Shown here: one piece after another, positions 282 to 24,516 of the stretch
Layout: every line of letters starts with the position of its first letter
How positions within the stretch are numbered: position 1 is the stretch's first letter
Source: Mycobacterium dioxanotrophicus
Lineage (GTDB): Bacteria; Actinomycetota; Actinomycetes; Mycobacteriales; Mycobacteriaceae
Direction of reading: 5' to 3'
Assembly (NCBI RefSeq): GCF_002157835.1
Contig: NZ_CP020813.1
Span: 1 to 64,000, forward strand
DNA: 64,000 nucleotides
The notes under the pieces: model-generated
Databases searched by the model: none
What the model saw: only the letters and a program-made list of their open reading frames with translations
What the model was told of the DNA's origin: nothing
Made by a program: the position numbers and the translations under genes

Positions 282-358
282 GCCTTGTTAGCTCAGTTGG
301 GACGAGCGTTCGCCTGAAAAGCGAAAGGTCGCCGGTTCGATCCCGGCACAAGGCACCA
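282..358 (+). tRNA. tRNA-Phe (anticodon GAA)
   Basis: A complete cloverleaf can be folded: acceptor GCCTTGT pairs with ACAAGGC, the anticodon stem TTCGC/GCGAA encloses the loop CTGAAAA with anticodon GAA, the T-arm holds GGTTCGATCC, and the CCA end is encoded at 356-358. It stands alone between two protein genes. An isolated tRNA like this is common on large actinobacterial plasmids and phages, where it may supplement the host or mark an integration site. No second copy of its 3' half was noticed in the window. Confidence 0.93.
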
Positions 359-14387: not shown

Positions 14388-14637
14388 CTTCGGTCGCGCG
14401 CTGGCGCTAGCCTTCACCACCCGAACCATCCGCCAGCTCGCCGCCCAACATCACCCACTCCCGTCTGATCGGCTCGCCCCCGTCGCAGAGCTCGCCGGCC
14501 CGGACGACACCCTGGGGAACGCATTCGACTTGGCTTACGCCGAGCTTGCCAGCCGGTATCGCTGTGAGTACGTCTTCGTCAACAGCCTGATCCACACACT
14601 GAGCGCACCGCGGAGCACCAGCAATGCCATCAGCTGA
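14380..14637 (+). pseudogene. sce7726-family gene, 5' part (interrupted)
   Basis: The first 85 codons (MADFGRALALAFTTRTIRQL and on, including AYAELASRYRCEYVFVNSL) form the N-terminal half of an sce7726-family protein. The frame is broken after codon AGC at 14632-14634 by an IS21-family element. Removing the element and one copy of the CAGC duplication joins this frame exactly to the 3' part at 17314, restoring a ~303-residue protein. The family is often found in mobile DNA and its function is not established. Confidence 0.8.
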
Positions 14638-14776
14638 TGGCGCTAAAGAAGACTGCCCAGAGATGCTAAGCGAAATTGCCCAGTTGGCTTGAGTGGCTAA
14701 GGTTAGCAGGTTCGTCGTTGCAGGGGAACGATTGTGCCGTCGCCGGGGGTGCTGGGGCGGGCAGCTTCTGGAGTGG

Positions 14777-15001
14777 TCAGCAAAGCGACGATGGTGATGG
14801 GTTCGCCGCAATGCGGGCAGGAACGGGTGGCGGCCGGCTGTGGGCGGGTGGCCGGGCCTCGGTGACGGTGGCGGCGGTGTCGCTGTGTTTGCGTTGCTCC
14901 CAGGCGTGTTTGCGGCAGCGGTCTGAGCAGTAGATCTTGGTCGGTGTGGTGGCGGTGAATTCGGTCCAGCAGGCTTGGCAGGAACGGGTCTCAGCTGACA
15001 T
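14777..15001 (-). CDS. Small zinc-finger-like protein of IS21 element B
   Basis: About 74 residues from ATG 15001 (MSAETRSCQACWTEF), overlapping the istB stop. It has a CxxC pair near residue 8 and a C-x3-C pair (YCSDRCRKHAWEQR), a treble-clef-like pattern, followed by a Pro-rich tail. Such small accessory frames sit beyond istB in some mycobacterial IS21 elements; whether it is expressed is unknown. Confidence 0.5.
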   Translation of the reverse strand: MSAETRSCQACWTEFTATTPTKIYCSDRCRKHAWEQRKHSDTAATVTEARPPAHSRPPPVPARIAANPSPSSLC

Positions 15002-15798
15002 GGGCGGCGACCGCCTTACGCATCGTTTCGGCGGTGGCTTGGTGGTTGCGCAGCCGGTAGCTGGGTCCGTCGATACCGACCACGGTGGCGCGGTGCAGTA
15101 GCCTGTCCAACATGGCGGCTGCGACGGTGGCGTCTCCGAAAGCGGTTGCCCAGTCAGCGATCCCAACATTGGTTGTCAGAATCGTACTCGACTTCAGATA
15201 CCGTTGGTTGATCACCTGGAACAACGCGGATGCCCATCGCCGGGCAGCGGAAGGTAGCCAAGTTCGTCAATCACCAACAGTTTCGGTCCGGCGAAGAACC
15301 GCATGCAGGTGTGCCAGCGGCCTTCCAGGGCGGCTTTGTGGCAGCGGGCCGCCAGGTCGGCGGCGGTGGTGAAATACACCCGGTGGCCGGCCTCGACCGC
15401 GCCGCGGGCCAACGCGACGGCCAGCATGGTCTTGCCGACCCCGGGTGGGCCGACGAACAGCACGTTGGCCGCGTCGTCGAGGAAGCGCAGACTGGCCAGG
15501 TCGTTGATCAGTTTGGCGTCGACCCGGGCTGGGCGGCGAAATCGAAATCGGCCATGGTCCAGGGTTCGGGCAGACAGGCGAACCGCAACCGTGAGGTCAG
15601 CCGGCGGGCTTCGGTGGCGTTGACCTCGATCTCCAACAGCCGCTCCAAAGCGGCGGTCAGGGACAGGTTTTCGGCGCGGGCGGCATCGAGGATGCGGGGT
15701 AGCGCTTCGGCTGCGTCGCCGAGTTTCAGATAGGACAGATGTGCCCGGAGTTGTTGGTATCGGCGGGCTTCGCTCATCTGTGGGACGGTTTTGCTCAA
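14991..15798 (-). pseudogene. istB: IS21-family helper ATPase IstB (two frameshifts)
   Basis: Three frames join into a full IstB: N-terminus around MSEARRYQQLRAHLSYLKLG, Walker A PPGVGKTMLAVALA, Walker B LLVIDELGYLPLPG, and C-terminus from FQVINQRYLKSSTILTTN to AAHVS. The switches near 15525 and 15233 are each repaired by one G. The likely start is TTG 15798 or ATG 15778, just after the istA stop at 15803. Confidence 0.85.
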
Positions 15799-15802
15799 GG
15801 GG

Positions 15803-17162
15803 TTACTCCTGGTTCTGTTCGGTTGGATGGTGTTGGGAACAACGGATAGCCGTGCTGCGGTCGCCGCATAGACGGCCAGATCGATCACTACCTTCTGGGC
15901 GGGATCGTTCGCCGGGGCACCACGCAGCCGCGCGGCCTCGGCAACGGCGGCCACCGAGGGCGGTCGCCGGGTCTTATGAGTGCAAGGCCTGGCCGTCGAG
16001 AACCCCGATAGCACTGCCTGTTCGAGCGCGACGACGTGACCGGCATCGCGCACCACCGCGCCGCTGCCGTCGACCGCGCGGCGGTGCGCGGCAACAACGG
16101 CTCCCGATGCCGTGGTCAATTGCACGGTGTCAGAGCCCAGGCGGTGGGTGACGGTCACCGTGGCCCGGCCAGCCCCGGCGGCACCGAGTACTGATTGCCC
16201 GCCAGGACACCAACGCTTGTGGAGTGACGATGCGGTGTTCGGTCAACTCGGCCGGATACGAACCCGTCGGCAGTGACCGTAGTGGTTCGGCATCGGCCAG
16301 GGCGCCGACGGTGGTGGCCTGCCCGTCGCGGCGCCGGCGGCGCCCGTCGAGCTTCACGCACAGCCGGTCCAGCGACGCCTGGGCTTGCTCGATCGTGGTG
16401 TCGTCGGTGACGGTGCGCCACCAGCGTTGGGCGGCAGCGTGATTGGACTTCTCCACCACACCCTTGCGGTTGCCCCGTCGTGGCGGGCACACATCGACGG
16501 CGACAGCGTAGTGTTTGGCCACCCCGGCGAACGCCGCGGTGATCCGGCCCGATTCGGGATGACATACCGTGGCCATCCGGTCGAACCGCCACCGCTGGGT
16601 GACCCCACCCAACCGGATGCTGACCGCCTCGATCGCTTCCACGACGTGCGCGAAGTCCTCGGCCGGGGCCAGCGCCCGCGCCAGCGGCTCGAATGGGCCA
16701 ACGCCCCGACCAGCAGGTGGGCATGCCGGTCAGCCGCCCACGATGCTGGTGGATCGGGCAGCTCGACCCAGTCCCACTGAGTCTCGACCCCGGCGGATGA
16801 TCGATGACCGCGACGTCGCGGCCCTTGACCGACTGACACGGCTCGCAATGCGGTCGCAGCCCCAGGTTTCGGATTGCCAGGGTCAGCGACGGATACGAGC
16901 CGGTAAAACCTAGCTCGACGAGTTCGTCGAACAGGGTTGAGGCCCACAGGTGCGGATCGTCAGCCAGGCGGATCCGGCAGTACTCGACGAACGGATCGAT
17001 CACCAGCGGTTCAGAGCGTTGGCGTTGCCCGGGTACTCGTTCCCCAGCCAGATAGGCCCGAACGGTTCGGCGATTGATCCCGAGATGGCGAGCGATCGCC
17101 GATATCGACCAACCCTGCTCCCGAAGCGCATGCGCTTCCACATCACCCTCCAGCGACAGCAA
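15803..17162 (-). pseudogene. istA: IS21-family transposase IstA (about five frameshifts)
   Basis: Starts MLSLEGDVEAHALREQGWSI with an N-terminal helix-turn-helix (ISAIARHLGINRRTVRAYLA), continues through the integrase core (WDWVELPDPP region, AVSIRLGGVTQRWRFD) and ends ..EQNQE at TAA 15805-15803. Frame switches near 16790, 16696, 16204, 16165 and 15825 are each repaired by a single base in a G or C run. If those are sequencing errors the transposase is intact. Confidence 0.82.
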
Positions 17163-17313
17163 ACGACGGCCCTCCCATTCATCAGCGGAAACACAACTCC
17201 GCTGACGATGAGCAGAACCCCGACAAGCAGTCCGACGACACGCCGAACCACCGCTGCCAACTGGGCACTTTCAATTAGCGAGACTGAGCACTTTCACTTA
17301 GCGCCATCACAGC

Positions 17314-17970
17314 GGGGTGCGGGTCTCGATGTCGATCGCTGACCTGATCGTCGCCGACAAGTCTGCCGCTGCGTACGAGATCAAAACCGGCCTCGACAGC
17401 TTCACTCGACTGGACATGCAGATGCTCTGCTATAGCAAGTGTTTCGAGTATGTCAACGTGGTGACCACACGCCAGAAGGCAAGCCGGGCGGGCGCGCAGA
17501 CGGCCGCCCACATCGGCGTGGTGGCGCTCACCGATGACGGCGCTCTCGATGTGGTGCGCTCGGCCGCCGGCGGGCTGTCTCGTCTCGACATATCCTCGCT
17601 GTTTCGCGTCCTGCGTCGTGGCGAGCTACTGACAATCCTCGGCCGCCATGTCGGCTACAGCATCGATGTGCCCAGCGCCCAAATCTATCGCCGACTCAAC
17701 GCACTGTTCATGCAACTGCCGCTCGACACCGCGTACGGCGAGTTCGTCGCCGCGCTGCGTGAGCGCGACCTACGCTCACGCCAAGCTGCCCGGGACGCGC
17801 AATTGCCCGCATCGCTGAGTGCCGCAGCCTCGGGTTTGAGCCTCACTCCGCCGGGGTGGCGGCGGCTGGCCGCGCAGCTCGGCCGTCCGGCCCACGAGTT
17901 CCGGACCCGCGGCGCACAGAGCCACGGTCACGGGTCAATCAGGAACTTCAACAGCTTTTCGATCCGGTAG
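17314..17970 (+). pseudogene. sce7726-family gene, 3' part
   Basis: Continuation of the frame broken at 14634. It carries the family-typical core YEIKTGLDSFTRLDMQM and CFEYVNVVTTRQ, reminiscent of a PD-(D/E)xK-like E-x-K element, and a C-terminal helical region. A GTG at 17317 could in principle start translation of this fragment, but there is no obvious Shine-Dalgarno. The last 43 bp overlap the convergent minus-strand gene at 17928. Confidence 0.78.
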
Positions 17971-18653
17971 CCGAGTTCATAGGTGGCGGGCAGATCCCAG
18001 CGAGGAGTAATCCACTGCATGACAATCTCGTCGGCGAGAAGCTCGTAGAGGCGTTCGTTGTCGTCGTTGACCCACGCCTCGATCACCTCACCCTGAGGGT
18101 CGACATCCAGGGGTGCGTAGTCCTCTCCACCGGATTCCGGGATGCGCTTGGGGTACTCCTTGCCATTGATGATCACAAACCCGTCGGTCTCCACGCCGAT
18201 GCGCTGCGTCGGGGCGCCCGGGGGCACCTTCTCGTCGCGACGCCGTGACGGCAGCTTCGCCGCGGGATCAGCGGAGTCGCGCCAACTCCGCACACGCGCC
18301 GGTGTGGTGCCGAGCTGGCGGGCCATCTTGGCCATGCCACCAGCGCGATCGATCGCCGCCCACCGATCCAGCCATAGCTTGTCCACACCTGTCGGCGGCT
18401 GATCGCGGCGGCCGCGGCGCGCAATCGTCGCCTCCGACAGCGCTTCGGTGTCGGTGTGCTGGGCGATACGGCGGGCCATCTCCTTGCGAGCTCGCCTGCC
18501 TGCCTCGGCACGGCGCATCCGTTCGGGCATCCGTTGCCATACCCCGCGCATCTCGCTGAGGCGCCGCTCGGTGAGCACTTTGAGCGCCTCCTGAAATCCC
18601 TGGCCCTGTGGGGACTGAGGCGTCGACCCGCCGGAGAGCTTCCAGAACTTCAC
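17928..18653 (-). CDS. Tpg-like candidate telomere terminal protein (HTH protein)
   Basis: 241 residues, basic N-terminus, then a helix-turn-helix (GGMAKMARQLGTTPARVRSW) and a C-terminal alpha/beta part with QRIGVETDGFVI and GEVIEAWVNDDNERLYELLA. Its ATG overlaps the stop of the upstream 612-residue gene (ATGA). The order, coupling, size and HTH-then-VETxxF layout recall Streptomyces Tpg, the protein covalently bound to linear-replicon ends, encoded just downstream of Tap. Sequence similarity is judged by eye only; it could instead be an unrelated HTH protein. Confidence 0.5.
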   Translation of the reverse strand: MKFWKLSGGSTPQSPQGQGFQEALKVLTERRLSEMRGVWQRMPERMRRAEAGRRARKEMARRIAQHTDTEALSEATIARRGRRDQPPTGVDKLWLDRWAAIDRAGGMAKMARQLGTTPARVRSWRDSADPAAKLPSRRRDEKVPPGAPTQRIGVETDGFVIINGKEYPKRIPESGGEDYAPLDVDPQGEVIEAWVNDDNERLYELLADEIVMQWITPRWDLPATYELGYRIEKLLKFLIDP

Positions 18654-20488
18654 AGCAGCTCATCGGGGATGCTCTTGAGCCGATAACTGCCGTTGGTGCG
18701 CGTCCCGTCAGGACGCAATGGGTCCTGCAGGTCCGCCGGGTTGATCCCGTCGGGGACCCGGTAGAACCACGCATCGGCAAGGCATTCGGTCGGGTACAGG
18801 TCGAAGTCGCGGCCGATGCGCCGGGCGTAACGCAGGGCCCGCCAGCGAGTGAACCCTTCGATGGCGGCGTACCAGGCAGGCTGCTGGTGGTGCAGGTAAG
18901 GATGCTTGAACGCGCCCTCACCGGTGCCGGCGAGCCGGCCCAGGTAGCTGGTGTAGATGGCCTTGATCATGTTCTCGTAGTCGGTGCGGCCGGCCGCGCG
19001 GGCGGCAACCAGCCTGGCGCGCAGAGTTTCTCCGAACTGCTTGAGCCACTGGTGCTGTTCGGGCCACACCCAGGCCTTTTCGATCTGCAGTTCGGCCACG
19101 GCCAGACCAGCGCCACCGTTGTCCGGCGGTGCGATGAGCTGCTGGACATCGATCGTGGTGGCCCAGAACGTTGATTCTTTGGTCCACGACATGCCCGGGT
19201 GAGGCACCGGCAGCTTCGGTGACAGCCCGTCGAGGCTGTCGGCGGCGGGCACGGTGATCTGGTACAGCCCGAACGGGGGTCGCTGCTCGTCGAACACGGT
19301 TGCCTCGATGCTCTCCCACTGGGGTTTGCCGTAGCCCAGGTAGAGACCTTCAGCCGACGGTAGATACGCCGCCTGCTGGTCGAGTTCGACGTCGGTGCCT
19401 TTACCGCGACTGCGGTGGGGCTTGCGCCGCCAGCTGGCCGGGCCCCACCACTGGCTGGGAAACTTGCCGCGCTCGTCGACAGCGGCCGGCAACGGGCAGG
19501 GAAGTACCTTGGCCTGCGGATCGGTCTTGGGTTTGGGACGGGCCCGCCGCATGCCGGATTCGGCGATGTGCACACCCACACGTGTCCAGCGTGGTGCGGG
19601 CAGGGCCTCGTCGATCTCATGCAACCAGGCGATGCGATCGCCGAGCAGGTGCGCCGCGTCGACCTCATCGTCGGGCAACACGGTGTCGGTGCCTTCGATC
19701 CCGATGATGCCCCGGTCGGCGGGGCGCGCTGCCGACGGCTGTAGCGACGTTGCCGGCATCAGGATGAGTTCGATGGTGCGGTCGGTGCCGCCGCTTCCCT
19801 CTTCGGCGCTGAACTGGCAGGTGAAGTAGCCGGACTGGGCGTATTTCACTGTGGCGCCGAAGAATTCGGCGACCAGATCGGGCAGGGACGCCTCGTTGGC
19901 TTGATCGGCGGGGAAGTTCAGGGCTTCGAGTGCTTCCCCGGTTATCCAGACCTGGGGGTCGCCGTGGTCAGCGCGGCTGCTCCACCGATATTTGGTGGCC
20001 AGTTTGCCGAGGTCCCCGGGCTGGCCTAGTGGCCGTGATTTGACGTCGCCGGCCGGGGTGACGATGCCATAGCTGGTGGCTATCAGTACCCGGTGATCGG
20101 CCGCCGAGAGCGCCACGTCGTCCCACTGGCGGGAGCGCCGGGGCCAGTGCTGCGGGTCGTCGTCGGGGGCGGCTGCGTTGTCCTGGGTAGCGGTGGTGTC
20201 ATCACCGGCTGAGTCCTGACGGTCTGTGAGCAGGTATCGCTGGACGGTCGGTTCCCACCAGCCTCGGGTGGGCCCCTGTTCGGGGTCCCCGACCACGACA
20301 TCGGGGCCAGGAAAGTCCTCGGGGATGCCCCGGCCGAGCCGGGTGACAACCTGCTGTCGGGAGAGTGTGACCAGTGGGCCGTCGAGTTCGCGACAGCGTT
20401 CGGCGATGATCCAGTCGAGGATGTCACCAGCTTCGCCGTCTTCGCCAAGCTCGTATACCCGACCGTCCTTGATCACATAGGTCGTCAC
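18650..20488 (-). CDS. Tap-like candidate telomere-associated protein with polymerase-like motifs
   Basis: 612 residues from GTG 20488 (GGAAAGGGG upstream; GTGA overlap with the preceding gene). The C-terminal half has D370-QQAAY-LPS, resembling family-B polymerase motif A (DxxSLYP), K509-AIYTSYLG, resembling motif B (KxxxNxxYG), and an acidic D572 in ECLADAWFY where motif C would lie. Streptomyces Tap recruits Tpg to telomeres and was reported to add nucleotides to it. The N-terminal half is unassigned. Confidence in a real gene is high; in the Tap assignment moderate. Confidence 0.55.
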   Translation of the reverse strand: MTTYVIKDGRVYELGEDGEAGDILDWIIAERCRELDGPLVTLSRQQVVTRLGRGIPEDFPGPDVVVGDPEQGPTRGWWEPTVQRYLLTDRQDSAGDDTTATQDNAAAPDDDPQHWPRRSRQWDDVALSAADHRVLIATSYGIVTPAGDVKSRPLGQPGDLGKLATKYRWSSRADHGDPQVWITGEALEALNFPADQANEASLPDLVAEFFGATVKYAQSGYFTCQFSAEEGSGGTDRTIELILMPATSLQPSAARPADRGIIGIEGTDTVLPDDEVDAAHLLGDRIAWLHEIDEALPAPRWTRVGVHIAESGMRRARPKPKTDPQAKVLPCPLPAAVDERGKFPSQWWGPASWRRKPHRSRGKGTDVELDQQAAYLPSAEGLYLGYGKPQWESIEATVFDEQRPPFGLYQITVPAADSLDGLSPKLPVPHPGMSWTKESTFWATTIDVQQLIAPPDNGGAGLAVAELQIEKAWVWPEQHQWLKQFGETLRARLVAARAAGRTDYENMIKAIYTSYLGRLAGTGEGAFKHPYLHHQQPAWYAAIEGFTRWRALRYARRIGRDFDLYPTECLADAWFYRVPDGINPADLQDPLRPDGTRTNGSYRLKSIPDELL

Positions 20489-20796
20489 GGGTGCCCCTTT
20501 CCGGCTTCGTCGGATGTCAGCGGTGGTGGTGGTACTTGCAGGGCAAGGCTTTCGGCCAATGTGCCGCGGCGCCATTTCGCGCGCAGGGACTCGACGGCTG
20601 AGGCGGTACGGCCTACCTGGATGGCGGCTTCGGTCACCGGCAGTGACAGGTCCAGCGCGATACGGGCGTCGCCGATGGTCCAGGGGTGTCCGCGTTTGGC
20701 TGCTGCGGCGCCGGTGCGCTCGGCGCGGCGCTCGCTGTAGCGACGGCGCTCGTCGCGGGAGCGTCGCCGCGGGGGTGGTGTCGGGTCGTCCGGCAT
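20485..20796 (-). CDS. Small DNA-binding-like protein
   Basis: 103 residues from ATG 20796, with GGAAGG eight bases upstream. A basic Arg-rich N-terminus precedes HPWTIGDARIALDLSLPVTE and AAIQVGRTASAVESLRAKWR, a pattern seen in small HTH proteins of mycobacteriophages and plasmids. It is the first gene of a coupled operon (GTGA overlap with the Tap-like gene). The promoter probably includes TAGCAT at 20836-20831, within a 12-bp sequence shared with the nuclease gene upstream region. Confidence 0.65.
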   Translation of the reverse strand: MPDDPTPPPRRRSRDERRRYSERRAERTGAAAAKRGHPWTIGDARIALDLSLPVTEAAIQVGRTASAVESLRAKWRRGTLAESLALQVPPPPLTSDEAGKGHP

Positions 20797-20891: not shown

Positions 20892-21635
20892 TCACGGCGC
20901 GACCGCCGGGCAGGTGGCGGCGGCGATGTTGCGCTCCTCGGTGGTGATCGCCAGGCCGTAGGTCACCGCGACGGTGAGGTATCGGGCGATGTAGGGGCAG
21001 CGGTATGACGGGTTCGGCGGCAGCCATGTCAGTCCTGAGTCCGACTTCTCGCGGTTGATCGTGCCACCGACTGCGATCAGGTTCAGCGGATCGTTAGCGA
21101 ACGCGACCCTCTGGGCGAGGCCCCAATGGGCTGCCCCAGCATGCCATGAGCGCCCCAGAGCAAACAGATGGTCGATCTGGACCGCGGCCGGGTCACTGAC
21201 GTCGAAGTGGATGGTCTCAGCCGTGTATGGGTCGACGAGGACCCCGGAAAGGACCTTGCAGCCCTGCGTGCCGGGCTTGATGGAGACCTGTTCTAACTGG
21301 CTACGCAGAATCCGCGACCGCGTATCGCATCCGCTGTGATCGTTGGGATCGTTCCACGCGGGGCCGAATGAACATGCCTGTCCCCGTTTGCATCCCCGGT
21401 CATATCCGTCGACTTCGGGCAGGGTGTCGACGACGCGCACCTGCTCGAGGAGTACCGCGATCTGTTCGTCGGGCACCGCAGCCACCGGTGGTGCGGACAC
21501 TGTAGTCGGAGACGGCAGCAGCGAAGACAGTTCCTCAGGTATGCCTCCGGCCAGCACGGTCAGTGTGATCGCGGCAGCCGCGGCGATCAGCAAACGCCGC
21601 TGCAGGGACTTCATCCTCCGCTTGATCCGTGCCAT
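20892..21635 (-). CDS. Secreted HNH (DUF1524-type) nuclease
   Basis: 247 residues from ATG 21635 (AGGAAGG upstream). A basic start and a hydrophobic segment (LLIAAAAAITLTVLAGG) form a signal peptide or anchor. The domain carries VQIDHLFALG, then AFANDPLNLIAVGG and NREKSD, the D-H...N...N layout of the HNH fold, plus four to six cysteines likely in disulfides. Such proteins are exported DNases in actinobacteria. A parS-like palindrome lies 23 bp upstream of the start. Confidence 0.85.
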   Translation of the reverse strand: MARIKRRMKSLQRRLLIAAAAAITLTVLAGGIPEELSSLLPSPTTVSAPPVAAVPDEQIAVLLEQVRVVDTLPEVDGYDRGCKRGQACSFGPAWNDPNDHSGCDTRSRILRSQLEQVSIKPGTQGCKVLSGVLVDPYTAETIHFDVSDPAAVQIDHLFALGRSWHAGAAHWGLAQRVAFANDPLNLIAVGGTINREKSDSGLTWLPPNPSYRCPYIARYLTVAVTYGLAITTEERNIAAATCPAVAP

Positions 21636-21657
21636 GCCACGCCTTCCTGTGTCGTTG

Positions 21658-21676
21658 GTGATGCAGGCTGCATCAC
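21658..21676. promoter_or_regulatory. parS-like palindrome (distant copy)
   Basis: GTGATGCAGGCTGCATCAC, a 19-bp palindrome with a single central base, identical in both arms to the copies around the ParA/ParB genes at 54-55 kb. It sits in the 5' leader of the nuclease gene. Confidence 0.7.
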
Positions 21677-21685
21677 CGAGGGGTG

Positions 21686-21717
21686 CCCTCATGCTACACA
21701 CGTAGTGAGCATGAGGG
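21686..21717. repeat. Inverted repeat between dnaB and nuclease genes
   Basis: CCCTCATGCT (21686-21695) and AGCATGAGGG (21708-21717), 10-bp arms with a 12-bp spacer. The left arm is part of the shared TAGCATGAGGGC motif. It lies just past the dnaB stop at 21722, so it may act as operator, terminator or both. Confidence 0.55.
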
Positions 21718-21721
21718 GTGA

Positions 21722-23116
21722 TTATCCGCGCGCGAGGTCGCGGAACGAGGACATGTGAAGAGTTGACGCCACGGTGCACGTCCTCGTTGGCCCGTTCCTG
21801 TGCTTTGCCAGGATGAGGTCTGCTTCACCGGCCCGTGGGCTGTCCCGGTCGTAGCCGTCCGGGCGGTTGATAAGGATTACCAAATCCGCATCCTGTTCCA
21901 GCTGACCGGTCTCGCGCAGGTCAGAGAGCTGTGGAACCTTGTCGACACGCTGTTCGGGTCCGCGGTTGAGCTGGCAGACCGCGACCACCGGCACGTCAAG
22001 TTCCTTGGCCATCAACTTGAGGCTGCGCGAAAACTCCGCCACTTCTGTTTGCCGAGATTCCACCCTCTTACCTGAGGACATCAGCTGCAGGTAGTCCACC
22101 ACAATCAGCTGCAGATCCGTCTTCTGCTTGAGCCGGCGCGCCTTGGCGCGGATCTCCATCATGGTCAGGTTCGGGGAGTCGTCGATGAACAACGGGGCGT
22201 CGGAGATCTCGCCCATCCGCCGGGCCATCCGCGTCCAGTCGTCGTCGCTCATCCGGCCAGAGCGCATGTCGGCCAATTTGATGCGGGCCTCCGCCGACAG
22301 TAGTCGCATCACAATCTCGGACTTACTCATCTCCAAGCTGAAGATGACGCTCGCGTGTCCGTGCTTGATTGAGCAGGACCGCATAAAGTCAAGTGCCAGA
22401 GTCGATTTCCCTTGGCCGGGCCGGCCCGCGACGATGACCATCTGGCCGCCGTGCAGGCCGGTGGTCACTTCGTCGAGATCGGCGAATCCGGTCGGAACTC
22501 CTTGGCCTTGACCGCCGCCGGCCTGGATCGCGTCGATCTCGTCCATGGTGGGCTGCAGCAGGTCCTCCAGCGCCACCATGTCCTCACTGCCGCGGTCCTC
22601 GGTGACGTCGTAGATCTCGGCCTGGGCGCGGTCGACGACCTCGGCGATGTCGGCGCCGTCGGCGCCGGCGTAGCCGTACTGCACCACCCGGGTGCCGGCC
22701 TCCACCAAGCGGCGCAGGACGGCCTTCTCGGCGACGATGCCGGCGTAGTAGCCGGCATTGGCGGCCGTGGGAACCGTGGCGATCAGCGTGTGCAGGTAGG
22801 GGGCTCCTCCGACACGCCGCAGCACTCCGCGTCGATCGAGTTCGGCGGCGACTGTCACCGCGTCCGCCGGTTCGCCCTGGCCGAACAGGTCCAGGATCGC
22901 GTCGTAGATCTGTTGATGGTTGGGCCGGTAGAAGTCCTTGGGCCGCAGCCGTTCGAGCACATCGGCGATCGCATCCTTGCTCAGCATCATCCCGCCCAGT
23001 ACGGACTGCTCGGCCGCTAGGTCCTGCGGTGGTTGGCGAGCATCGTCGAGATCGGTGTAGGGCTCCGCCGGCCGTCGGTGCTGGGTACGCGCTGGAGCGT
23101 CGTCGAGATCGGTCAT
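21722..23116 (-). CDS. dnaB: Replicative DNA helicase, DnaB family
   Basis: 464 residues. The N-terminal domain (DLAAEQSVLGGMMLSKDAIA) is followed by the RecA-type domain with Walker A GRPGQGKSTLA, Walker B LQLIVVDYLQLM, and the DnaB C-terminal SDLRETGQLEQDADLV. It unwinds DNA at the fork 5'-3'. It lacks the intein found in some mycobacterial DnaB. Its ATG overlaps the stop of the upstream wing-helix gene (ATGA), a typical initiator/loader-helicase arrangement. This is an accessory, replicon-borne copy judged by context. Confidence 0.95.
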   Translation of the reverse strand: MTDLDDAPARTQHRRPAEPYTDLDDARQPPQDLAAEQSVLGGMMLSKDAIADVLERLRPKDFYRPNHQQIYDAILDLFGQGEPADAVTVAAELDRRGVLRRVGGAPYLHTLIATVPTAANAGYYAGIVAEKAVLRRLVEAGTRVVQYGYAGADGADIAEVVDRAQAEIYDVTEDRGSEDMVALEDLLQPTMDEIDAIQAGGGQGQGVPTGFADLDEVTTGLHGGQMVIVAGRPGQGKSTLALDFMRSCSIKHGHASVIFSLEMSKSEIVMRLLSAEARIKLADMRSGRMSDDDWTRMARRMGEISDAPLFIDDSPNLTMMEIRAKARRLKQKTDLQLIVVDYLQLMSSGKRVESRQTEVAEFSRSLKLMAKELDVPVVAVCQLNRGPEQRVDKVPQLSDLRETGQLEQDADLVILINRPDGYDRDSPRAGEADLILAKHRNGPTRTCTVASTLHMSSFRDLARG

Positions 23117-24423
23117 GCCGGGATCACCTCCTCGAATTCGGCGTCGTCTTCACCTGCGGCCAAGTCGGCAGCGATGTGCGGCCAGCACTGGTCGCACACG
23201 TTCGCCATCGACTTGAGTGGCAGTTCAGGGCGGTAAACGCCGCCCTCGGAGCCGCAGACCACGCAGTCGCAGCCACCGCTGATCGCCAGATCGATCAGCA
23301 GGTCGGTGCTCAGCGACGTCACCGCCGGAACCGGTTCCACCACGGCGGGTTCCGCGCGCTGGGCCAGGATGTCTCTGGCCCAGCGCGCCAACGCTTCCGC
23401 CAGGGGCATCTCCGGGAACATGCCGGCCACTCGACGCGCCGCCGCTGCCAACGCGGCCACCGGATCCTTCGACCGCCGCCCGAACTTCACCTCGTCGGCC
23501 CGAAGCACCTCCGCGCGCAGCTCCGGGCTGGTCACGGCCGCCACGTCGGCGTACCGGCGGGCTTTGGCGTCGTCAGCTTCGGCACGGGCCGTTGCAGCGG
23601 CTTCGGCATCCCAGGCCTGCTGCAGGGGGCGCAACCGCGGCCCGGAACCCACGACGTTGCGCTGGAGGCGCCAGACCGCCAGCTTGTACGGGCGCTGCAC
23701 GTCGGCGGGCATATCGGCGGTCAGCACGTCGAGGATCTGATCCGGGCGCCATCCCCGCTTCAACCGCTGCAGGATCTCGCTTCCGAGCTTCCACCGCAGG
23801 TGCTTCGGGAGGTTGGCCATAGGCTTGGGCAGCCCATCGAGGACCGTTTTTAGCTCCCCTTTGGGAACCTTCACCTCAGTCGGTCGCGGACCCGGCCGCC
23901 GCCTGTCGCAGCGGAGGGTAGGGAGGTACTTCGTTTGGTCTATATAAGGACGCGGCCCAGAAAAGGTGACGGAATCGGGCCGCGAATGGCCGCCGCAATT
24001 GGTGATTACCCGGCCGGAGCTGTCTCGTTCGAGCACCTCGACATCGCCCACGAACTGGCCGTGAACGGCGATCAGCGAGCGGGCACCGCGGCCCCTAGCA
24101 GGCCGATACACGATCAGGTCGGCTGCAGCTAGCCCGGCCAGCGCCCGCCCGATGGTCTTGACGTCGTAGCGCCGCTCACCGGCCGCTGCGACAAGCTCAA
24201 CGATCTGCGTCAGCGCCACCGCGTCGTCGGACAGCCTGCTCCACCCGCACAACAAGCGCAGCACGGCCGCCAGCACGTGACGGCGCGCCCCGCGTAGCTT
24301 CAAGCCAGCGGCAGCGCCTTCAACGCGTTCGCGCACCGTGGCCGCGTCGTCGAAGGCGATCCGCTGGCGCGGCGGCCTCGACGACCCCGGCCGGCGTACG
24401 CCGCGCCTGCTGGCGGCCGACAT
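23113..24423 (-). CDS. Probable replication initiator or helicase loader
   Basis: 436 residues from ATG 24423; the frame is open to 24516. The N-terminal ~120 residues look like a winged helix (GARRHVLAAVLRLLCGWSRL; YDVKTIGRALAGLAAADLIV). A middle region (GWRPDQILDVLTADMPADVQ) resembles the C-terminal helical region of mycobacterial plasmid Rep proteins, including the Rep at 49346. The C-terminus has CDCVVCG..CDQCW, a likely zinc site. Direct coupling to dnaB supports a role in loading that helicase. Confidence 0.65.
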   Translation of the reverse strand: MSAASRRGVRRPGSSRPPRQRIAFDDAATVRERVEGAAAGLKLRGARRHVLAAVLRLLCGWSRLSDDAVALTQIVELVAAAGERRYDVKTIGRALAGLAAADLIVYRPARGRGARSLIAVHGQFVGDVEVLERDSSGRVITNCGGHSRPDSVTFSGPRPYIDQTKYLPTLRCDRRRPGPRPTEVKVPKGELKTVLDGLPKPMANLPKHLRWKLGSEILQRLKRGWRPDQILDVLTADMPADVQRPYKLAVWRLQRNVVGSGPRLRPLQQAWDAEAAATARAEADDAKARRYADVAAVTSPELRAEVLRADEVKFGRRSKDPVAALAAAARRVAGMFPEMPLAEALARWARDILAQRAEPAVVEPVPAVTSLSTDLLIDLAISGGCDCVVCGSEGGVYRPELPLKSMANVCDQCWPHIAADLAAGEDDAEFEEVIPA

Positions 24424-24482
24424 GCCGACACCGCCGGCCCCCCCACGACAGGCGGGCTGGCGAACTCCGGTTGAACTGTGTT

Positions 24483-24503
24483 CAGGGTAGGAGCTACCCT
24501 GAG
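24483..24503. promoter_or_regulatory. Palindromic operator upstream of the rep-like gene
   Basis: CAGGGTAG-GAG-CTACCCTG: 8-bp arms and 3-bp spacer. Its right half plus two bases, GCTACCCTGAG (24493-24503), recurs at 28199-28209 upstream of the six-gene operon. Confidence 0.5.
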
Positions 24504-24516
24504 AACTACCTAGCAT

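Follow-up and report, generated by a model that had tools for sequence, protein, structure and literature searches.

A cluster of three minus-strand genes, encoding proteins of 103, 612 and 241 amino acids (aa) and coupled by 4-bp overlaps, lies in bases 1-64,000 (the window) of contig NZ_CP020813.1 (C5; 69,875 bp), one of the five contigs of the 8.08-Mb genome of Mycobacterium dioxanotrophicus. The original prediction, which was made from the DNA of this window, placed all three genes correctly and likened them to the tap-tpg telomere pair of Streptomyces linear replicons. The present analysis points with good confidence to the 612-aa gene product as a Tap-type protein-primed polymerase, small and divergent in sequence, and to the 241-aa gene product as its terminal protein. 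The two would form a compact pair resembling Tap/Tpg, with a polymerase whose predicted fold is like that of phi29. The candidate terminal-protein gene overlaps the end of the polymerase gene and follows it directly downstream, an order that is kept in relatives. The polymerase gene has a GTG start at 20488 and its stop at 18650; an alternative upstream ATG would give 641 aa, and a relative with 97% identity (P0002) is likewise 612 aa long. The open reading frame (ORF) of the 103-aa protein, as listed, could begin further upstream and would then encode 180 aa.

The residues D370-QQAAY, K509-AIYTSYLG and D572, which had been compared with motifs A, B and C of family B polymerases, are present in the 612-aa protein as claimed, and the predicted fold bears the comparison out and refines it to the protein-primed family B enzymes typified by phi29. 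In the AlphaFold2 (AF2) model (predicted local distance difference test score, pLDDT, 86.2), D370 stands at the end of strand 364-371, K509 inside helix 502-518, and D572 between strands 568-570 and 573-579. The modelled layout is that of polymerase motifs A, B and C, the placement being judged by secondary structure and not by residue-by-residue superposition. Using Foldseek and VIA, phi29 polymerase was by a wide margin the best structural match, and a phi29-like polymerase fold is well supported by the model. The spacing of motifs A and B is also similar, 139 residues here and 134 in phi29. On the other hand, sequence similarity to phi29 polymerase is not significant, no 3'-5' exonuclease DxE is visible in the aligned strand (the register being approximate), motif C reads ADAWFY with the canonical DTDS not present, and the model stops about 40 residues past motif C, too short for a full thumb. 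All 47 aligned relatives have D370, G517 and D572 unchanged, and 36 of them also have K509; after clustering at 90% identity the counts are 40/40 and 30/40. D370 and D572 are also D, and K509 is also K, in the Tap-like proteins of pAL1, pAP13 and Microbacterium and in SAP1 Tap. As aligned, the D370/K509/D572 pattern is more than chance.

The family link of the 612-aa protein to Tap is strong at the level of sequence profiles. The SAP1 gene taken as Tap is identical to a public protein named telomere-associated protein Tap and has a 185-aa gene next downstream; this is at odds with the excerpt of PMC8743542, in which SAP1 is listed among plasmids without Tap and Tpg. A family profile (A1 plus seven plasmid relatives) ranked this Tap first among the 384 ORFs in the first 50 kb of SAP1 (E 1.2e-6; runner-up 0.42). 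Further matches of this profile were to a 1,719-aa protein encoded by the linear plasmid pAP13, in its C-terminal part (E 2e-24), to a 'telomere-associated protein' of Microbacterium (E 1e-23) and to a 1,088-aa protein of M. intracellulare (E 4e-70). When bridged by the pAP13 and Microbacterium sequences, it aligned in hhalign with 72 Tap sequences over 370 columns (E 2.6e-12, score 105), as against a score of 19.4 for a reversed Tap profile and at most 23.1 for 20 column-shuffled profiles. D370, K509 and D572 align with D445, K605 and D675 of SAP1 Tap. The search was also turned round: a profile built from SAP1 Tap and the proteins of pAL1, pAP13 and Microbacterium, which contains no member of the 612-aa family, found a single place in the source genome, namely the 612-aa gene (E 1.1e-15); as positive controls, pBD2 and pREL1 gave two places each, and NZ_CP025548 and pMyong2 one each. 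The family profile and the pAP13/pAL1/Microbacterium profile agreed on one gene each in pMyong2, pCBMA213_3 and C5. Nothing was found in the source genome with a profile built solely from 17 Streptomyces Taps, nor with the pAP13 piece by itself, and therefore diverse profiles are needed to see the link. A tblastn search from the pAP13 core reached 553 plasmid records, 387 of them from Streptomyces, and matched the 'telomere-associated protein' of pAL1 (E 5e-85). The 612-aa protein thus has both a clear polymerase-fold match and sequence homology to Tap, and with a gene order the same as that of SAP1 tap-tpg, the likeness to tap-tpg stands.

The case for the 241-aa protein, for which 28 relatives were found, is less direct. 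It had been called a helix-turn-helix (HTH) protein, and the HTH was seen, yet weakly, with matches to YdaS and carph-isopro (E 4e-5 each) below the curated cut-offs. Its AF2 model (pLDDT 83.8; predicted template modelling score, pTM, 0.52) consists of a helical part with the HTH at about residues 92-126, followed by a beta-rich C-terminal domain. A profile of its family found 8 of 11 partner proteins of the plasmid relatives (E 3e-123 to 5e-5) and missed the other three, i.e., those of M. intracellulare ZUERICH-2 and Microbacterium and SAP1 Tpg (E 0.04-0.5). When the family was compared with Tpg directly, the HTH alone aligned, weakly (probability 4-8). A chain of profiles leads from one to the other: the 241-aa family to the rhodococcal partners (E 3.8e-11, 71 columns, HTH region), these to the pAL1/pAP13 group (E 3e-7, 126 columns), and the pAL1/pAP13 group in turn to Tpg (E 4.8e-7, 126 columns; for this last step, reversing the profile as a control, with three of the four group members, gave E 0.6). 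The likeness to Tpg in the original prediction thus amounts to a stepwise profile link through intermediates. Y167 of the 241-aa protein is nearly invariant, and any role of it in priming would be a guess.

Matches to the 612-aa protein were found by tblastn in 128 plasmid records, from Rhodococcus (92), Prescottella (11), Mycobacterium (10), Mycolicibacterium (7), Gordonia (4) and four other genera (one each); no phage record was matched. In 12 of these records a single place spanned 80% or more of the query; some of the remaining records may hold other Tap-like genes. Among 298 sampled genomes of the order, seven gave matches, including the source genome and some partial ones. The 39 relatives found by protein search were without names or annotated as hypothetical proteins. 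In M. intracellulare, the 1,088-aa protein (L075 4974-8240) carries a copy of the polymerase core in which D370, K509, G517 and D572 are all replaced, fused to an intact Tap-like core; judged from these replacements, the copy is apparently dead.

Linkage to linear replicons is frequent among these relatives. Twelve records with this type of gene had a topology label seen; pAP13, SAP1 and pAL1 (linear) and the Microbacterium and M. intracellulare ZUERICH-2 plasmids (circular) carry other types and are not counted here. Seven of the twelve were labelled linear (pCLP, pBD2, pREL1, pGD21-2, pRHL3, pVAPN2012 and pNSL1) and five circular (NZ_CP025548, pMyong2, pCBMA213_3, CP049837 and NZ_CP084587). 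The ends of seven were compared, and terminal inverted repeats were found in five: pCLP (43 bp, 84%), pMyong2 (NC_020276.1, L011; 474 bp, 87%), pCBMA213_3 (MN587875.1, L012; 489 bp, 100%), pGD21-2 (at least 595 bp, 99.8%) and NZ_CP025548.1 (L190/L191; about 205 bp, 78%). The five repeats are not due to chance, since when internal 600-bp pieces of contig C2 were paired at random, only one pair in about 200 reached E <= 1e-6. In NZ_CP025548 the first 60 bases are the same at both ends and start with nine C. Thus pCBMA213_3, pMyong2 and NZ_CP025548, although labelled circular, are probably linear. Compared by eye, the left ends of pCLP (L166), pGD21-2 (L167) and NZ_CP025548 (L190) share a C-rich start, a small hairpin with a TTCG loop and a GGGAG soon after, and pMyong2 and pCBMA213_3 appear to start just inside the same hairpin.

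The genes around the pair also recur in relatives (Table 1). The 103-aa protein, which is perhaps DNA-binding, matched no Pfam or NCBIfam family at E <= 1; an unannotated homolog immediately precedes the polymerase gene on the plasmid of M. paragordonae (L009; E 6e-31), and genome G195 has another near its polymerase gene (L021; E 4e-24). Gene by gene, the M. paragordonae cluster reads 467-aa homolog (E 1.6e-106), 103-aa homolog, polymerase and terminal-protein candidate, and in pGD21-2 a DnaB homolog (E 2e-226) is just upstream of the pair. A separate DnaB module and a Rep had been predicted, of which DnaB is clear; the 467-aa protein is Rep-like by position and relatives. It weakly matches (E 3.9e-5) a pCLP ORF overlapping the annotated rep in another frame, hence the name. 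Homologs of the HNH/GmrSD_C protein occur within a few kilobases of the pair in M. intracellulare (L075; E 1e-55) and in L021 (E 2e-45), and its gene is possibly, although uncertainly, part of the module.

Table 1. Genes of the putative end-replication cluster and its surroundings in the window, with the codons of the three motif residues
Feature	Position	Strand	Basis or remark
612-aa Tap-like polymerase with predicted phi29 fold (protein-primed, family B-like)	18650..20488	-	AF2, Foldseek/VIA, Tap-superfamily homology
Codon of D370, motif A aspartate	19379..19381	-	D in 47/47 family rows
Codon of K509, motif B lysine	18962..18964	-	K in 36/47 family rows
Codon of D572, motif C aspartate	18773..18775	-	D in 47/47 family rows
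241-aa candidate terminal protein	17928..18653	-	28 homologs, AF2 model, stepwise profile link to Tpg
103-aa small protein	20485..20796	-	Overlaps start of polymerase gene by 4 bp
HNH/GmrSD_C nuclease-like protein, between DnaB and the cluster	20892..21779	-	PF07510, E 7e-14
DnaB-type replicative helicase	21722..23116	-	TIGR00665, E 2e-151
467-aa protein	23113..24516	-	4-bp overlap with dnaB; Rep-like by position and relatives

C5 further encodes ParA, a ParB-like HTH protein, TcpC, an AAA_10 ATPase (VirB4-like by our reading), an FtsK-like ATPase and NlpC/P60 proteins, and from this gene set it looks like part of a conjugative plasmid. A single tRNA-Phe gene is located near its left end (window 282-358). 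An IS21-like element with an IstB match occupies window 14626-17309, just downstream of the 241-aa gene; copies more than 99.5% identical to it are found on contigs C2 (two), C3 (two) and C4 (one).

The cluster resembles the Streptomyces system in its homologous polymerase part, where the three motif residues align, in gene order and in having an HTH protein as the (here putative) terminal protein. The differences are in size and domains: SAP1 Tap has 752 aa and the protein here 612, without a recognisable N-terminal XRE HTH (no fitting Pfam match for such an N-terminal HTH domain was found across 37 members of the family); Tpg has 185 aa, whereas the partner here has 241 and is tied to Tpg via intermediates; and a small separate gene (103 aa) stands upstream. 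In the 1,707-aa 'telomere-associated protein' of pAL1, a linear plasmid of Arthrobacter sp. Rue61a, the C-terminal part belongs to the superfamily and has the motif residues, and the gene is in the same order with an HTH partner; it has about 1,100 extra N-terminal residues, whereas the 612-aa protein is close to the minimal core. Kolkenbrock et al. in 2010 reportedly described family B motifs that the pAL1 protein conserves in part and a terminal protein that is deoxycytidylated, so the polymerase idea has a forerunner. The gene pair, together with terminal repeats, is shared by pCLP (in pieces) and pMyong2; there, the genes carry the annotation 'hypothetical protein'. The excerpt of PMC7276702 mentions distant homologs of tap and tpg on linear plasmids of Rhodococcus WAY2, and the general Tap/Tpg kind was thus already known in Rhodococcus. 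That pair is described as lying at the plasmid end, whereas the type studied here is a hypothetical protein in mid-plasmid in pBD2 and pREL1. According to the portion of PMC12803027 (2026) used here, the linear plasmids of M. avium (pS2b type) are protein-capped by as-yet-unknown terminal proteins, and two plasmid proteins of M. avium, of unknown function, are in common with pCLP. Among the literature matches listed, no title or opening lines gave Tap a phi29-type fold or named these mycobacterial proteins.

If the 612-aa and 241-aa proteins act as suggested, replication would start internally with the Rep-like protein and DnaB, and forks would run to the plasmid ends, leaving 3' overhangs. 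The terminal protein would be held at the folded overhang by the polymerase, perhaps also by the 103-aa protein, and its hydroxyl would receive the first nucleotides from the polymerase; a host polymerase would then finish the fill-in, with the terminal protein remaining on the 5' end. The presence of the DnaB gene beside the pair makes such end filling likelier than a phi29-style replication of the whole genome.

A number of results weigh against this interpretation. The 612-aa protein matched no family in Pfam, NCBIfam or PHROGs at E <= 1, and no fitting Pfam family was found across its 37 relatives (phrog_597, 'DNA binding protein', matched four of the 37 with a best E of 6e-5, the window protein not among them). 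Searching sequences of the Protein Data Bank (PDB) with the family profile gave a single chance match (E 0.67). The Foldseek template modelling (TM) scores were modest (0.33-0.36 by query length), and in hhalign the comparison with 19 phi29 and tectivirus polymerases was not significant (E 0.6); that same alignment sets K509 on the motif B lysine of phi29. Unbridged, the hhalign comparisons with Tap were weaker (scores 54, 46 and 37; E 8e-6, 1.3e-4 and 1.4e-3), the last of these being with A1 alone and at a probability of 17. As for the 241-aa protein, its model matched no PDB structure at E <= 0.001, its family profile failed to single out Tpg from the ORFs of SAP1, and comparison by eye gave no counterpart of T114, which the excerpt of PMC3572947 gives as the priming residue of Tpg. 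In pCLP (L010 17407-21371), pieces of the polymerase-like gene, in different frames, flank an element of the IS607 family. The terminal-protein candidate of pCLP gives matches in two frames. Finally, pMyong2 is linear with covalently closed hairpin ends according to the excerpt of PMC4378964, and a terminal protein would then not be needed.

The alternative that survives best, although we consider it improbable, is that the 69.9-kb contig comes from a circular or integrated element and that the pair is a relic or passenger no longer serving telomeres. Of the two possibilities raised for the ends of the contig, neither was seen: C5 has no terminal repeat, no telomere-like end, no ends shared in either orientation and no end overlap. 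A search of the source genome with the terminal repeat of pCBMA213_3 gave only 26-29-bp matches, on C1, and CP049837 and NZ_CP084587 hold the gene but showed no terminal repeats on comparing their ends. However, the gene retains all three motif residues in an uninterrupted reading frame, and C5 may be incomplete at its ends. Moreover, C5 1881-8126 (6.25 kb) is an inverted copy, 99.6% identical, of the very right end of contig C4. Such a copy would be expected if both contigs came from a single linear plasmid with long terminal repeats, but equally if a segment were common to two plasmids. The source plasmid may be linear. A further 3.3-kb copy, in direct orientation, links C5 61631-64900 with C4 5326-8594.

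It is less probable still that the pair serves internal replication or copy control, as a module of an initiator with a polymerase fold and an HTH partner acting at a central origin and not at telomeres. In pBD2 and pREL1 the pair is in mid-plasmid, and a second superfamily member ('telomere-binding protein'), with a stronger match to the Tap profile, is found 6-9 kb from an end. As these two plasmids carry the pair plus a separate Tap near an end, the telomere role of the pair is something we infer. DnaB and/or Rep-like genes beside the pair in the source contig, pGD21-2 and M. paragordonae, as well as the degenerate core fused to an intact Tap-like core in M. intracellulare, would also suit such a module. 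In the source genome, pMyong2 and NZ_CP025548, on the contrary, the gene is the sole superfamily member found, and the latter two have terminal repeats. It is also less than 10 kb from the record end in 7 of 13 mycobacterial records among the best rows, a count that has little meaning for three plasmids of 18-23 kb and in which the ends of circular-labelled records may be arbitrary. That the polymerase-like fold is a catalytically dead scaffold binding only telomere DNA and the terminal protein is very unlikely. In its favour are the missing DTDS in motif C, K509 in only 36 of 47 rows and the clearly degenerate M. intracellulare copy; against it stand the invariance of D370 and D572, which extends to the Streptomyces and Arthrobacter relatives, and the addition of nucleotides in vitro by Streptomyces Tap and Tpg alone (PMC4513846, excerpt).

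It seems somewhat more plausible than the contrary that the whole actinobacterial Tap superfamily, from Streptomyces linear chromosomes to mycobacterial and rhodococcal plasmids, is a branch of the phi29/tectivirus-type protein-primed polymerases that is invisible at the sequence level, and that the 612/241-aa pair represents this branch in nearly its smallest form and is the pair, missing until now, that replicates the ends of linear plasmids in mycobacteria. In the excerpt of PMC4513846 (2015), Tap and Tpg alone made short protein-primed DNA in vitro and Tap was stated to have no DNA polymerase motif; the fold predicted here suggests a structural reason why Tap could add nucleotides to Tpg nevertheless. 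The gene pair may mark linear replicons, as three of the five circular-labelled carriers have terminal inverted repeats. It would also provide a testable candidate for the terminal protein and the priming polymerase of mycobacterial linear plasmids, a group in which the terminal proteins of M. avium were still given as unknown in 2026 in the portion of PMC12803027 cited above.

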